Positions 8,776 to 13,664 of a DNA stretch of 46,360 nucleotides are shown here, one piece after another. The notes beneath the pieces were generated by a model. The model worked only from the letters and a program-made list of their open reading frames with translations. It ran no database searches and was not told the DNA's origin. Source of the DNA: a virus. The translations under genes and the position numbers were made by a program. Positions within the stretch are counted from its first letter, which is position 1; each line of letters begins with the position of its first letter. The DNA is taken from IMG/VR virus record IMGVR_UViG_3300002143_000276, positions 1 through 46,360 of that record. The stretch is one strand, 5' to 3'.

Positions 8776-9336
8776 TTAGAATGAACGAGTGTAAGAGATA
8801 GTTGTTTGTGTATTAGCACCATCACCACGCTGAACATCATAACCAAGTCTGATAGCATCTTTCTTGGTTAATGCATAACCAACGCTATAACGCATAGTAT
8901 TAGATTGGTCGGCGTTTACAGTATCATATGCACTGCGATAGCGATATGCAACACGTGTGCTAATATCACCAAACTTTGCAGTAACTCCAGGTTCTACAGA
9001 GTAGTAACCAAAATCTTGAACACCTGATTTTTGCTTCATGCCAGTACTAAGACGAACATCACCACGAAGAATTGAAGAAAAATCCATTCCTGTAGATACG
9101 CCAATTTCATAACGGTTAGTAACGCCACGAGCTACATCAGCAGTTTCAGTATTGATACCTGCATCAACATCGACATTAGTAAATGCACGAGTCTTAACAG
9201 ACATATCCATTACATGACTTTGTACATTTGTAACATCTGCTTCTTTAACGCCATATGTTGCAGTTACTGATGACTGTGCACTTGCCGCTGCAGAGAATGC
9301 TACTAGACAAGCAGTTACGATTAATTTTACTTTCAT
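8776..9336 (-). CDS. Outer-membrane beta-barrel protein
   Basis: 186 aa with a clear signal peptide (MKVKLIVTACLVAFSAAASA, cleavage before QSS). The mature part alternates polar and hydrophobic residues in strand-like blocks (YEIGVSTGMDF, RVAYRYRSAYD, MRYSVGYALTKKDAIRLGYDV) and ends in TTISYTRSF; a C-terminal Phe is the assembly signal of Gram-negative outer-membrane proteins. AGGAAA precedes ATG 9336. Phage genes of this kind can change the host surface (superinfection exclusion, receptor masking) or affect lysis; the role here is unknown. Confidence 0.8.
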   Translation of the reverse strand: MKVKLIVTACLVAFSAAASAQSSVTATYGVKEADVTNVQSHVMDMSVKTRAFTNVDVDAGINTETADVARGVTNRYEIGVSTGMDFSSILRGDVRLSTGMKQKSGVQDFGYYSVEPGVTAKFGDISTRVAYRYRSAYDTVNADQSNTMRYSVGYALTKKDAIRLGYDVQRGDGANTQTTISYTRSF

Positions 9337-9375
9337 TTATTTTTTCCTATAAGTTGTGATAATGCTAAAACAAAT

Positions 9376-9406
9376 GGTAGGTTATTCTGTTACGAGGAAA
9401 CCTACC
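9376..9406 (-). terminator. Terminator hairpin at the 3' end of the tmRNA gene
   Basis: GGTAGGTT/AACCTACC, 8 bp, followed by ATTTGTTTT on the minus strand. It could also be part of the coding-piece structure. Confidence 0.6.
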
Positions 9407-9729
9407 GAAACCCTAAGCAGTGTTTAAGCTGCTAATGCGAACTGTGAGTCGTTTGCGTTTACTTTGTTTTGTATCTTCGGCCGGGAATCCCCAACCCTAC
9501 GGCTTCTACATTGCCGAGCTGTCCACTTTGTTACTCCTTGCTCTGTCGAAACCTTGTCGCCCCCATCAAAAGTATTCTCGATCTCCAGCCTACTTTGTGG
9601 TGATCAAACCACTTTCGACTTTCACTGATCCTGCGTCCAGTTTAGAATACTTTTGGTGGAGGCGGGGGGAATCGAACCCCCGTCCAGAACACCTTTTACT
9701 CTGCTTCATACAGCAATTCTTATACCATT
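9407..9729 (-). ncRNA. ssrA: Circularly permuted two-piece tmRNA
   Basis: On the minus strand the acceptor piece comes first: T arm GGGGG-TTCGATT-CCCCC (9681-9665), acceptor strand CGCCTCC, A, CCA (3' end 9654). After an 89-nt intervening segment the coding piece starts at 9564 with GGGGGCGACAAGGTTTCGAC, whose GGGGGCG pairs with CGCCTCC including a G3-U70 wobble, the alanyl-tRNA synthetase determinant. The tag frame (9456-9424) reads ANDSQFALAA then TAA. This order is that of the permuted tmRNA genes of alphaproteobacteria, many cyanobacteria and some betaproteobacteria. It would release stalled ribosomes and tag nascent proteins for ClpXP-type proteolysis. A 12-bp inverted repeat (9567-9578/9644-9655) extends the acceptor helix in the precursor. 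5' end estimated from the promoter. Confidence 0.92.
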
Positions 9730-9735
9730 AAGACT

Positions 9736-9765
9736 ATTGTACCATATTTATCTATTAATAGACAA
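9736..9765 (-). promoter_or_regulatory. Promoter of the tmRNA gene
   Basis: TTGTCT (9765-9760), 18-nt spacer, TACAAT (9741-9736). It differs from the repeated early promoter and looks like an ordinary sigma-70 promoter. Confidence 0.55.
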
Positions 9766-9825
9766 TTCTTTTTATCAAATCATTTTCTTTGATCAAGAAC
9801 TTTATTTATTGAAGGTTTGTATTTT

Positions 9826-10500: not shown

Positions 10501-11289
10501 TTAATGTATAAAGTTTTTACTTTTTACGTTTGTCCAGAATTTAGTGCTTGCTTTTAGTGTACCTTCTGCGCCAGATGGAATATTTGAAACATCAACTAAG
10601 ACTGTTCCACTTCCATTAGAAAGTTGAGGCGTTAATACTACACCAAGCGAACTAGTGTAGTATGTTTTAATTGGAAGAGTCGTAGTAACATCAAAAGATA
10701 ATATATTGCCATTTCTAGATGGAGCAGAAATTTGCTCTATAGTAGGACGTAACGCCTTATAATCTTCGCTGCTTGCAAGTATTTTAGATTGCAATTCAAG
10801 ATCACCAGTTAAAACAAGTTCTTGTTTTGGTGTTTTCCGTGTAACTAAAGAAAAAGTATTTGAATCAGAAGCACATGGAATCACTAACTCAAACAGAACT
10901 TGAGTTGAGCTATTAAGCTTAATTTTATATTTCGTTGGGTCTTCTTTGCTAATATAAGTATTAGCAAAAATATTATAATATGCACCAGTTGAATAGAATA
11001 CCCAGACTGTATTATCGGCAAGACCATTATCGTTAAAAATATTATTAAGATCAAATGTTGTGACTATAGGATCTGCCATGTTTGCTGACGACAGTGAATC
11101 TTTATCAATTGCAGGAATCACAGGCGGTAATGGTATTCCATCATCACCAAGAACAGGTTCAGTAAAAGCTGCGATTATTGGTGTATAATATGAAAGTTTA
11201 GAAGTTAGAATACCACTAGCGTTAGAATAATCTAACTCTAACCTAAATGTATTTTCTTTAATTTGATTTGACGACTTATATATTTTCAT
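10501..11289 (-). CDS. Unrecognised protein downstream of the radical SAM gene
   Basis: 262 aa, acidic, beta-rich with many Ser/Thr/Asn (GILTSKLSYYTP, NTVWVFYSTGAYY, GNILSFDVTTTLPIKTYY, GSGTVLVDVSNIPSG). One Cys. No signal peptide or membrane segment. It looks like a phage structural or carbohydrate-binding protein, but I recognise no family. Same direction and 36 nt behind the radical SAM gene, so possibly a partner or second substrate. Confidence 0.7.
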   Translation of the reverse strand: MKIYKSSNQIKENTFRLELDYSNASGILTSKLSYYTPIIAAFTEPVLGDDGIPLPPVIPAIDKDSLSSANMADPIVTTFDLNNIFNDNGLADNTVWVFYSTGAYYNIFANTYISKEDPTKYKIKLNSSTQVLFELVIPCASDSNTFSLVTRKTPKQELVLTGDLELQSKILASSEDYKALRPTIEQISAPSRNGNILSFDVTTTLPIKTYYTSSLGVVLTPQLSNGSGTVLVDVSNIPSGAEGTLKASTKFWTNVKSKNFIH

Positions 11290-11325: not shown

Positions 11326-12675
11326 TTACACTGCGTGTATAGGAATAAACTTTTTAATTTTAGGTAATGGAATATTATCTTTTTTCAATCCATAAAGATC
11401 CCATCGATCTCGTCTATGTGGGCCTTCAATATAGAATGGGATAAACCCAGTCATTTGTTCTATTGCAGCAGAGAAATAAGAAATATTATCAGAGAAAGAA
11501 TTATTACAACTTACTTCCCACAATGGGCCTTCTAAAAACATACAAGATCCTCTGCAGAGTTGTAGAACTGGACACTTAGGACATTCTTCTCTGTACGACC
11601 AATGCGTTACTGTATTCAATTTTATGTTTTCAAAATCAGCAGTATTTCCAATTAAATGGGATTCATTGTTAAATGATTTTGAAACAGAACTTACGTTCTG
11701 ACACGTTATGACATTTCCCCTTAAATCAACAGCAATATTCTCAGGATTATCCATTCCACATTTTTGACCTATTGCAGACGCAGGTCGGGCATTAGAGATT
11801 GACTTTATAAAGTTAATTACTTTATTCCCAGTTGACGTAAAACGATTCGCTTTACCAGTGCGTATTTCTACTAGTGAATCATTTCGAAAGTCTATATGCT
11901 CCTTAAGATCTACTAAAGAAGATGCAAATCCTCCTTCATCGTATGGATCAATAAACGATCCTTCACCGATATAAAGATCTTCTCCAAACACTTTTACTAA
12001 AAATTCTTCGATTGCTGCACGACTTTTATTATCTTTATGAAGCATTGCGTTAATACTAATTTTGCCTTTTGGCTTTAATATTTTATACAAGTCTAGTATA
12101 TGTTGTCTTTTTTCTGGATCATCTAGTGGATCTAATCCTCTTACATGATATCCAGGCCCATCATGGCTAATTCCTACTGAAAAGTCCATGCGATCTAACC
12201 ATTCATTTTTCTCTTTATCTAAAAGAGATCCGTTCGTTATGGTAGATAAGTTTGCGTTTGGATATTTTGCTTTTAATTTTTCTGCAAGAGGTTTTAATGT
12301 TTTCCAATAAACAAATGGTTCTCCACCCCAAAATTCAATTCTTTCAGGTTGATCTTTTACCCAATTATCGAGACTATTTACAAACCCATCAACACTACTT
12401 GGGTTGGTTTCATCTGCATTAGGAACAAACCTTTGACTACAATAAGAACATTCATAATTACACGACAATCCAAGAGAAATTTTAAGAGTTTTTGGACTAG
12501 CTTTCTTAAGAGGAGTATCTTTAGAAACTCTAGGAAAATCTTTAAATTCTTTTTTAGTTACTGGTATTACACTTTCTCCATCTAAAGTTGTTAACTCAGA
12601 AGTTTGATTATCATAGTTAAATTCAGCAAATAGATCACCCTGCTGATTAACACACTTTAATATAAATTTTGCCAT
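11326..12675 (-). CDS. Radical SAM/SPASM domain peptide-modifying enzyme
   Basis: 449 aa. Residues 65-80 hold the radical SAM motif CNYECSYC (Cys72, 76, 79); WGGEP (116-120) is the SAM-binding GGE motif; STITNGS and SINAMLH are barrel strands. The C-terminal SPASM domain carries seven Cys (306, 325, 365, 368, 374, 378, 390; CGMDN, CPKCPV, CRGSC), enough for two auxiliary 4Fe-4S clusters. Such enzymes (anaerobic sulfatase-maturing enzyme, RiPP maturases) alter side chains of protein or peptide substrates. AGGA precedes ATG 12675. The adjacent Cys-rich small protein is the obvious candidate substrate; that is inference. Confidence 0.93.
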   Translation of the reverse strand: MAKFILKCVNQQGDLFAEFNYDNQTSELTTLDGESVIPVTKKEFKDFPRVSKDTPLKKASPKTLKISLGLSCNYECSYCSQRFVPNADETNPSSVDGFVNSLDNWVKDQPERIEFWGGEPFVYWKTLKPLAEKLKAKYPNANLSTITNGSLLDKEKNEWLDRMDFSVGISHDGPGYHVRGLDPLDDPEKRQHILDLYKILKPKGKISINAMLHKDNKSRAAIEEFLVKVFGEDLYIGEGSFIDPYDEGGFASSLVDLKEHIDFRNDSLVEIRTGKANRFTSTGNKVINFIKSISNARPASAIGQKCGMDNPENIAVDLRGNVITCQNVSSVSKSFNNESHLIGNTADFENIKLNTVTHWSYREECPKCPVLQLCRGSCMFLEGPLWEVSCNNSFSDNISYFSAAIEQMTGFIPFYIEGPHRRDRWDLYGLKKDNIPLPKIKKFIPIHAV

Positions 12676-12706
12676 TTATAATCCTAATAATATAAAAAAT
12701 TAATTA

Positions 12707-13048
12707 TTAACCGCAGTCGCAATCGCAATCGCAGTTGCAGTTGTTATAACCTACATAGTTTTCCTGTCCGTGTATAACCATTGTATCACCAGATCTATAT
12801 GAGACTATGCCGCCGGAATAATAACAATTAGTGCAATTTGCATTGCCGCCTCCTATCCAAGCACTGATGTATGGACCTCCAGTGTTGGCAGGAGCACTAG
12901 AAGCCCTATTATTAGTACAGTTCCAATTGCCATAACCAGCTAAATCATTAAATGGTTTACTACTTACCTGACTCCATGCTAGAGTGGCGCTAGACATCGA
13001 GCTGCCGTCTCCAAATGTTATATTACCATTACCTAGTGTTGCTGCCAT
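12707..13048 (-). CDS. Small Cys-rich protein, candidate substrate of the radical SAM enzyme
   Basis: 113 aa with strong AAGGAG before ATG 13048. The N-terminus (GNGNITFGDGSSMSS) resembles the opening of phage tail-fibre-like proteins; the middle is Gly/Asn/Trp-rich with NCTN at 43-46 and NCTNC at 71-75; the last ten residues are CNCDCDCDCG. Eight Cys in total (44, 72, 75, 104, 106, 108, 110, 112). It overlaps the end of the oxygenase gene and lies 31 nt before the radical SAM gene, and a TATAAATA box lies 55 nt upstream. A late, post-translationally modified virion or secreted peptide is the best reading; metal binding by the CxCxC tail is an alternative. Confidence 0.8.
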   Translation of the reverse strand: MAATLGNGNITFGDGSSMSSATLAWSQVSSKPFNDLAGYGNWNCTNNRASSAPANTGGPYISAWIGGGNANCTNCYYSGGIVSYRSGDTMVIHGQENYVGYNNCNCDCDCDCG

Positions 13049-13664
13049 TTAAATTCTCCTTATTAATTTCGGTATTACTGCTTTTAAAAAGCTCTATAAC
13101 AGTATTTATAACGACACGAATGGGCGTTTTCTCTGGATTTGAAGACGCATGGGATATATTTGATGGAAACAATAAAACTGATCCTTTTTTAGGAGAAATT
13201 CTTACAGTTTCTTCTGGATAGAATAAAACAGTATCTCCATCTGAATCATTTGCGTAATAAACTGCACTTAAAGAATTCTCACTTGGAGTATCAACATGAG
13301 GATAATTAGTCCTTCTCTCAACTCCTACATATTTCCATAAAAAGTTTGCTTTCCATCTTGTAATGCAAACCTTCTCAACCGTCTGATCTATCTTTTTTAT
13401 ATTTTCACATATTTCAATTAACAAATCTTTTATATTCTGCGTTGGTTGAATACCCCAATTTGTTCCATCGAAAAACATACAACCCATATGACCAATGTCA
13501 AACACTTCTTTGTTTTCAATTTGACTTGGCACGTTATCCATATGATTGCCATACGTAGTTTCGCAATATTGCCAACCTGGAGTATTTGTTAATTGAAAAA
13601 ATATAGTATTCTGAGCTTCTTCTGATACAATATTCTCAATTAAAATGTGACGTTTATAATCCAT
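13029..13664 (-). CDS. 2-oxoglutarate/Fe(II)-dependent oxygenase
   Basis: 211 aa. Iron ligands His123 and Asp125 (YPHVDTP) and His172 (SNISHASSNP), with Arg183 (RVVIN) to bind 2-oxoglutarate, in the order and spacing of the prolyl-4-hydroxylase-like family; LSAVYYANDSDGDTVLF is the typical strand after the HxD. Common in T4-like cyanophages, substrates usually unknown. Here it lies between PhoH and the Cys-rich gene, whose start it overlaps by 20 nt, so hydroxylation of that protein is a possibility. Confidence 0.9.
   Translation of the reverse strand: MDYKRHILIENIVSEEAQNTIFFQLTNTPGWQYCETTYGNHMDNVPSQIENKEVFDIGHMGCMFFDGTNWGIQPTQNIKDLLIEICENIKKIDQTVEKVCITRWKANFLWKYVGVERRTNYPHVDTPSENSLSAVYYANDSDGDTVLFYPEETVRISPKKGSVLLFPSNISHASSNPEKTPIRVVINTVIELFKSSNTEINKENLNGSNTR
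13103..13110 (-). promoter_or_regulatory. T4-type late promoter TATAAATA before the Cys-rich gene
   Basis: Exact TATAAATA within the 3' part of the oxygenase gene, 55 nt before the Cys-rich start; would give a separate late transcript for the Cys-rich protein and the radical SAM enzyme. Confidence 0.5.

Follow-up and report, generated by a model that had tools for sequence, protein, structure and literature searches.

The window, meaning the whole stretch of DNA analysed, is an IMG/VR virus fragment of 46,360 bases, and its T4-type genes include matches to SSB, helicase loader, DNA ligase, exonuclease, a clamp-loader-like protein and PhoH. On the minus strand it holds a 2OG-Fe(II) oxygenase, a small Cys-rich protein, a radical SAM/SPASM enzyme and a candidate accessory protein, here called P26, in that order. 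The Cys-rich protein and its counterparts elsewhere, which bear repeats of the CNC type, are referred to as carriers. The features are as follows.

9350-9768 (-): permuted tmRNA, phage-borne and of betaproteobacterial type (RF01850, E 3.7e-34; ARAGORN tag ANDSQFALAA)
10501-11289 (-): putative P26 accessory protein, 262 aa, with a C-terminal Ig-like domain (from homology to the P26 of locus L114, and position)
11326-12675 (-): radical SAM/SPASM enzyme, 449 aa (phrog_1802; PF04055 above the Pfam cut-off)
11506-11760 (-): SPASM region with seven invariant Cys (C306, C325, C365, C368, C374, C378, C390)
12439-12462 (-): CX3CX2C radical SAM cluster motif (C72, C76, C79), invariant in alignments A1 and A3
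12707-13048 (-): Cys-rich tail-fibre-type carrier, the proposed substrate, 113 aa, eight Cys
12710-12739 (-): C-terminal repeat CNCDCDCDCG, residues 104-113, the proposed modification site
13029-13664 (-): 2OG-Fe(II) oxygenase, 211 aa (PF13640)
13056-13061 (-): ribosome-binding site AAGGAG of the Cys-rich gene (from sequence)
13103-13110 (-): TATAAATA, a possible T4-type late promoter box (from sequence)

The sequence-only reading of this DNA had described a 113-aa protein with eight Cys and a CNCDCDCDCG tail, encoded directly before the radical SAM gene and overlapping the end of the oxygenase gene. Its coordinates and sequence hold, with 20 nt shared with the oxygenase gene and 31 nt between it and the radical SAM gene. 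All eight Cys are preceded by Asn or Asp, for which the composition-based chance is about 1.4e-6, and C104, N105, C106, C108 and C110 are invariant in alignment A4. The repeat is the end of the protein, with no Hint domain after it. The N-terminus (LGNGNITFGDG...) has 62% identity over 32 aa with short NCNC proteins of loci L126/L077, and L126, L127 and L114 have three tandem carriers of 92-167 aa with the same kind of N-terminus. Searches with the whole protein against isolated phages, Pfam, PHROGs and NCBIfam gave no similarity. The late promoter box that had been read ahead of the gene is present, as TATAAATA, but the window has seven copies where 6.2 are expected by chance, so the box alone is no evidence and was dropped as such.

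The seven SPASM Cys attributed to the enzyme are all invariant in alignments of relatives, 18 in one and 22 in the other. The enzyme also matches TIGR04085 at 33.9 bits, above the cut-off of 27. Its AlphaFold2 model has a mean pLDDT of 89.6, and the closest solved structures found by Foldseek are CteB, the best match, anSME, ChlB and TigE. By E-value the best NCBIfam model is that of the PapB thioether maturase (NF047865), although its 57.2 bits lie below the cut-off of 340. A wHTH RRE domain is frequent, if not universal, in RiPP enzymes; the model contains none, its N-terminal region consisting of three strands with no helix before the core, which leaves substrate recognition unexplained. 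The enzyme has 51 relatives in IMG/VR and 80 in bacterial genome contigs, which were counted as contigs and not individually as prophages, many of them from Limnohabitans, Comamonadaceae, Rhodobacteraceae and Rhodospirillales; no plasmid relatives were found. In loci L035, L036, L058 and L019 a second, shorter radical SAM gene adjoins the main one.

Most of these relatives, viral and bacterial, have an NCNCNC-type repeat protein nearby, usually upstream and usually with the repeat at its C-terminus. The sequences are not independent of one another, but when the enzymes are clustered at 50% identity a carrier lies near about 20 of the 23 clusters, 16 by gene call and four (L088, L218, L234, L252) by direct ORF search. 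In a few family members, namely a Variovorax/Ramlibacter clade, L236 and L248, no such carrier was seen. The carriers themselves fall by single linkage into six N-terminal groups, one of them very large.

The search for CxCxC-tail proteins beside radical SAM genes in other phages, proposed in the sequence-only reading, was carried out as a blind scan of IMG/VR for (C[ND])4C that took no account of the enzyme and returned at least 119 loci. Among the matches listed, the fetched stretch includes a radical SAM gene for 67 of the 80 C-terminal carriers, always on the same strand and in 66 cases downstream. One of the 13 misses (L111) looks spurious, leaving about 79 credible carriers; for nine of the other 12 the complete record contains a radical SAM gene outside the fetched stretch, and the last three lie on record fragments of 5.5-9.4 kb. 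The total among the matches listed is thus 76 of about 79 credible carriers, some of the enzymes counted being distant from the window's enzyme family. A control motif of equal degeneracy, (C[KE])4C, gave 53 loci, none of which has a radical SAM or oxygenase match. Hexanucleotide repeats can yield spurious reading frames, and some non-credible scan matches are of that origin, but the idea that a low-complexity repeat merely coincides with a common phage radical SAM gene is contradicted by these counts and by the constant strand and order, and is extremely improbable. The sequence-only reading would have been refuted by homologues regularly lacking the radical SAM gene, and almost all the records looked at contradict this; as in RiPP systems, a Cys-rich precursor-like gene adjoins the enzyme gene and is conserved with it. 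From these comparisons, a functional pairing of carrier and enzyme on Asn/Asp-Cys sites is well supported.

The sites themselves follow a simple rule, computed on 54 non-redundant carriers with 569 Cys. The residue before Cys is Asn in 76%, Ala in 12% and Asp in 5% of cases. Of the isolated Cys, 179 in number, 86% follow Asn, compared with 3.9% in the remaining genes of those loci, while the residue at +1 of these Cys is free. Inside the repeats X is Asn (66%), Ala (21%) or Asp (9%), and Gly is almost absent, as would fit chemistry at the beta carbon. The Asn/Asp/Ala-Cys dipeptide thus looks like the recognition or reaction unit of the enzyme. Divergent cassettes obey the same rule, a further point against coincidence. 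The repeat might instead be a metal- or Fe-S-binding or disulfide-locked tail tip, itself unmodified, with the radical SAM enzyme acting elsewhere on the tail. CxC repeats would be plausible metal ligands, but the preference for Asn before isolated Cys is what one would predict for a site recognised by an enzyme and not for metal ligation, and the linked carriers have the repeat in common, so an unmodified tip is unlikely.

Two other kinds of Asn-Cys protein were seen. Loci L011, L013, L050, L056, L084 and L091 encode proteins of 67-79 aa ending in HTHxFYDDYxTAC(N/D)CNCNC-type sequences. As many as four distant radical SAM genes lie close to them, and this may be another Asn-Cys system, one that uses several enzymes. 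A 123-aa protein at L009:2386-2784, near radical SAM genes, has CQTCQGCQ repeats followed by NCNCDCNCNC.

The window oxygenase scores 33.5 bits against PF13640 (gathering score 27) and has HVD and a later H in its sequence. Its relatives sit within radical SAM cassettes (for example in L158, E 5.6e-12), and a 2OG oxygenase is a recurrent partner there, which agrees with its earlier placement in the system. Many phages and bacterial contigs share the gene order carrier, P26, 2OG oxygenase (PF13759/PF13640), radical SAM; the window holds all four genes, ordered oxygenase, carrier, enzyme, P26. Clustering at 60% identity gives 39 enzyme clusters, and by gene call, which misses carriers that lie beneath longer antisense ORFs, these include 19 with the oxygenase, 24 with P26 and 15 with carrier, oxygenase and P26 together. 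Some cassettes have no oxygenase, and its presence does not correlate with the Asn content of the repeat (P = 0.61), so any role given to it is guesswork. The gene at 10501-11289 is tentatively placed in the cassette by its position and by a weak homology (E 2.8e-5, 17% identity) to the P26 of L114, a protein that recurs in many cassettes. Its AlphaFold2 model (mean pLDDT 81) resembles uncharacterised Caudovirales proteins in Foldseek and gives weak PDB matches, mostly Ig-like domains; a sequence search of the PDB gave no credible match. At L165:6812-7843 an ATP-grasp-like gene, recognised by eye, lies between carrier and radical SAM gene, and the same slot holds an unlabelled gene of about 293 aa in L155, L159 and L167-L171.

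Genes adjoining the cassettes match tail-fibre or baseplate families, with an endolysin as well in L127, and several carriers themselves match tail-fibre families; many carriers are longer than that of the window, up to about 700 aa. By tblastn, enzymes with 47% identity (phrog_1802) occur in the Achromobacter phages JWF and 2-1, two genes downstream of a tail-fibre protein with a CNCDCNC repeat (NCNCDCNCNCS in JWF, NCNCDCNCS in 2-1). Each repeat stands directly before a Hint-type domain, and such a domain also follows the repeat directly in Burkholderia L204 and in L150 and L253-L256, some of the Pfam scores being weak. The scan of window ORFs recognised no tail gene, so a virion location for the window protein is proposed from its relatives.

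The sequence-only reading had weighed a modified virion peptide against a late secreted one. A RiPP-like bioactive peptide, secreted or intracellular, could be made late in infection with the tail-fibre-like N-terminus as a borrowed leader, and the short carriers of the window, L126, L127 and L114 would suit it, as would the small DCGC peptide adjoining the enzyme in the outlying-clade loci L242 and L243. Many carriers, however, are longer proteins and several match tail-fibre families, the cassettes examined lie among tail genes, and a non-exhaustive search of cassette and neighbouring genes recognised no exporter. The same search brought up no leader peptidase. A peptide product is accordingly improbable, the secreted form being disfavoured, and the tail protein is favoured. 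The L242 and L243 loci (Variovorax and a gammaproteobacterial contig) encode a small peptide with a conserved LNC...DCGCxISP sequence just upstream of the radical SAM gene, a pair that may be a RiPP-like relative of the phage system.

The preferred reading, to which a probability of about 0.75 is given, is that the four genes together serve the maturation of a virion protein, with the radical SAM enzyme modifying Asn/Asp-Cys sites at the C-terminus of a tail protein. Sequence analysis shows the genes, their motifs, the conserved cassette, the Asn-Cys rule and, for relatives, the tail context; from these we infer the reaction of enzyme and substrate, its chemistry, the virion location of the window protein and the function as follows. 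The 113-aa tail-fibre-type protein, whose N-terminal region recurs in short phage proteins from cassettes of this type, carries Asn/Asp-Cys dipeptides clustered towards its C-terminus. The SPASM radical SAM enzyme would recognise Asn/Asp/Ala-Cys dipeptides and add a covalent modification there. The likeliest modification would be Cys-sulfur cross-links, in which a thioether joins Cys to the residue before it or to another close by, because bonds of this kind are made by PapB, the closest annotated model though scored far under its cut-off, and by CteB, the closest fold. The 2OG oxygenase would hydroxylate the same tail or a partner, P26 may be an assembly partner or co-structural protein, and in some relatives Hint-type cleavage would expose the modified end. 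The product would be a tail protein whose distal end is stapled or chemically altered in another way, with possible effects on stability, trimer locking, receptor contact or chemistry. A more specific version is about an even bet: radical SAM enzyme, 2OG oxygenase and P26 would together build an Asn-Cys-derived cross-link chain at the C-terminal end of tail receptor-binding proteins, followed in some phages by Hint-type cleavage that exposes the modified end, and this would be a previously undescribed class of virion maturation.

Peptide natural products are the main setting in which radical SAM peptide maturases are known. PapB (NF047865) and CteB (5wgg) resemble the window enzyme in combining radical SAM and SPASM regions and in having a Cys-rich substrate adjoining the enzyme. 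The substrate unit of PapB is CX3D/E, whereas that of the window family is Asn/Asp/Ala-Cys; the window enzyme model also differs from PapB and CteB in its want of a wHTH-like domain, and its substrate is tail-protein-like rather than a secreted peptide. The JWF and 2-1 cassettes differ from the window in the Hint-type domain after the repeat and in that no 2OG oxygenase was seen adjoining; their enzymes are annotated only as sulfatase-maturating or radical SAM proteins. Phage 2OG-Fe(II) oxygenases belong to the same family (PF13640/PF13759); those described here differ in their repeated occurrence in one cassette with a radical SAM enzyme and a CxC carrier.

A 2022 survey (PMC9062424) noted an Asp-Cys motif, in up to six repeats, in a peptide whose gene neighbour is a radical SAM enzyme with chemistry not known to the survey. 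Its cluster 59 (and cluster 115) resembles the present system in that pairing; compared by description alone, it is a three-gene cluster with a recombinase, and phage, tail protein, P26 and oxygenase are unmentioned. PMC7029224 mentions, without analysing them further, that two pelagimyophages have cassettes of radical SAM genes in the region devoted to host recognition. The literature searched, with most subscription papers outside it, gave no direct precedent for the motif, for radical SAM modification of phage tails or for JWF, save PMC9062424. The earlier statement that no such phage system has been described therefore stands for the phage context in that literature, but not for a peptide with Asp-Cys repeats next to a radical SAM enzyme. 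Enzymes of this class are known; their target and setting appear new here, and the recurrence of the cassette in dozens of unrelated phages points to an undescribed chemical finishing of phage tail tips. If true, host recognition or virion stability would gain a post-translational layer made by enzymes, Cys-Asn repeat ends that are at present annotated as hypothetical would have an explanation, and a family of enzymes able to recognise a simple dipeptide within large proteins would become available. The cassettes of the cultured phages JWF and 2-1 make the system testable.

The match of the window's tmRNA to the betaproteobacterial type suggests a betaproteobacterial host. Adjoining the tmRNA, at 8776-9336 (-), is a gene for a 186-aa protein, unusual for a phage, with a signal-peptide-like start and a weak match to outer-membrane beta-barrels; it also occurs at L125:5746-6306. 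In L125, the nearest relative, the stretch with L125:4348-5310 and L125:3258-4418 encodes a protein resembling periplasmic solute receptors (TctC-type by eye) and another resembling PP-loop (SGGLDS) ATPases.
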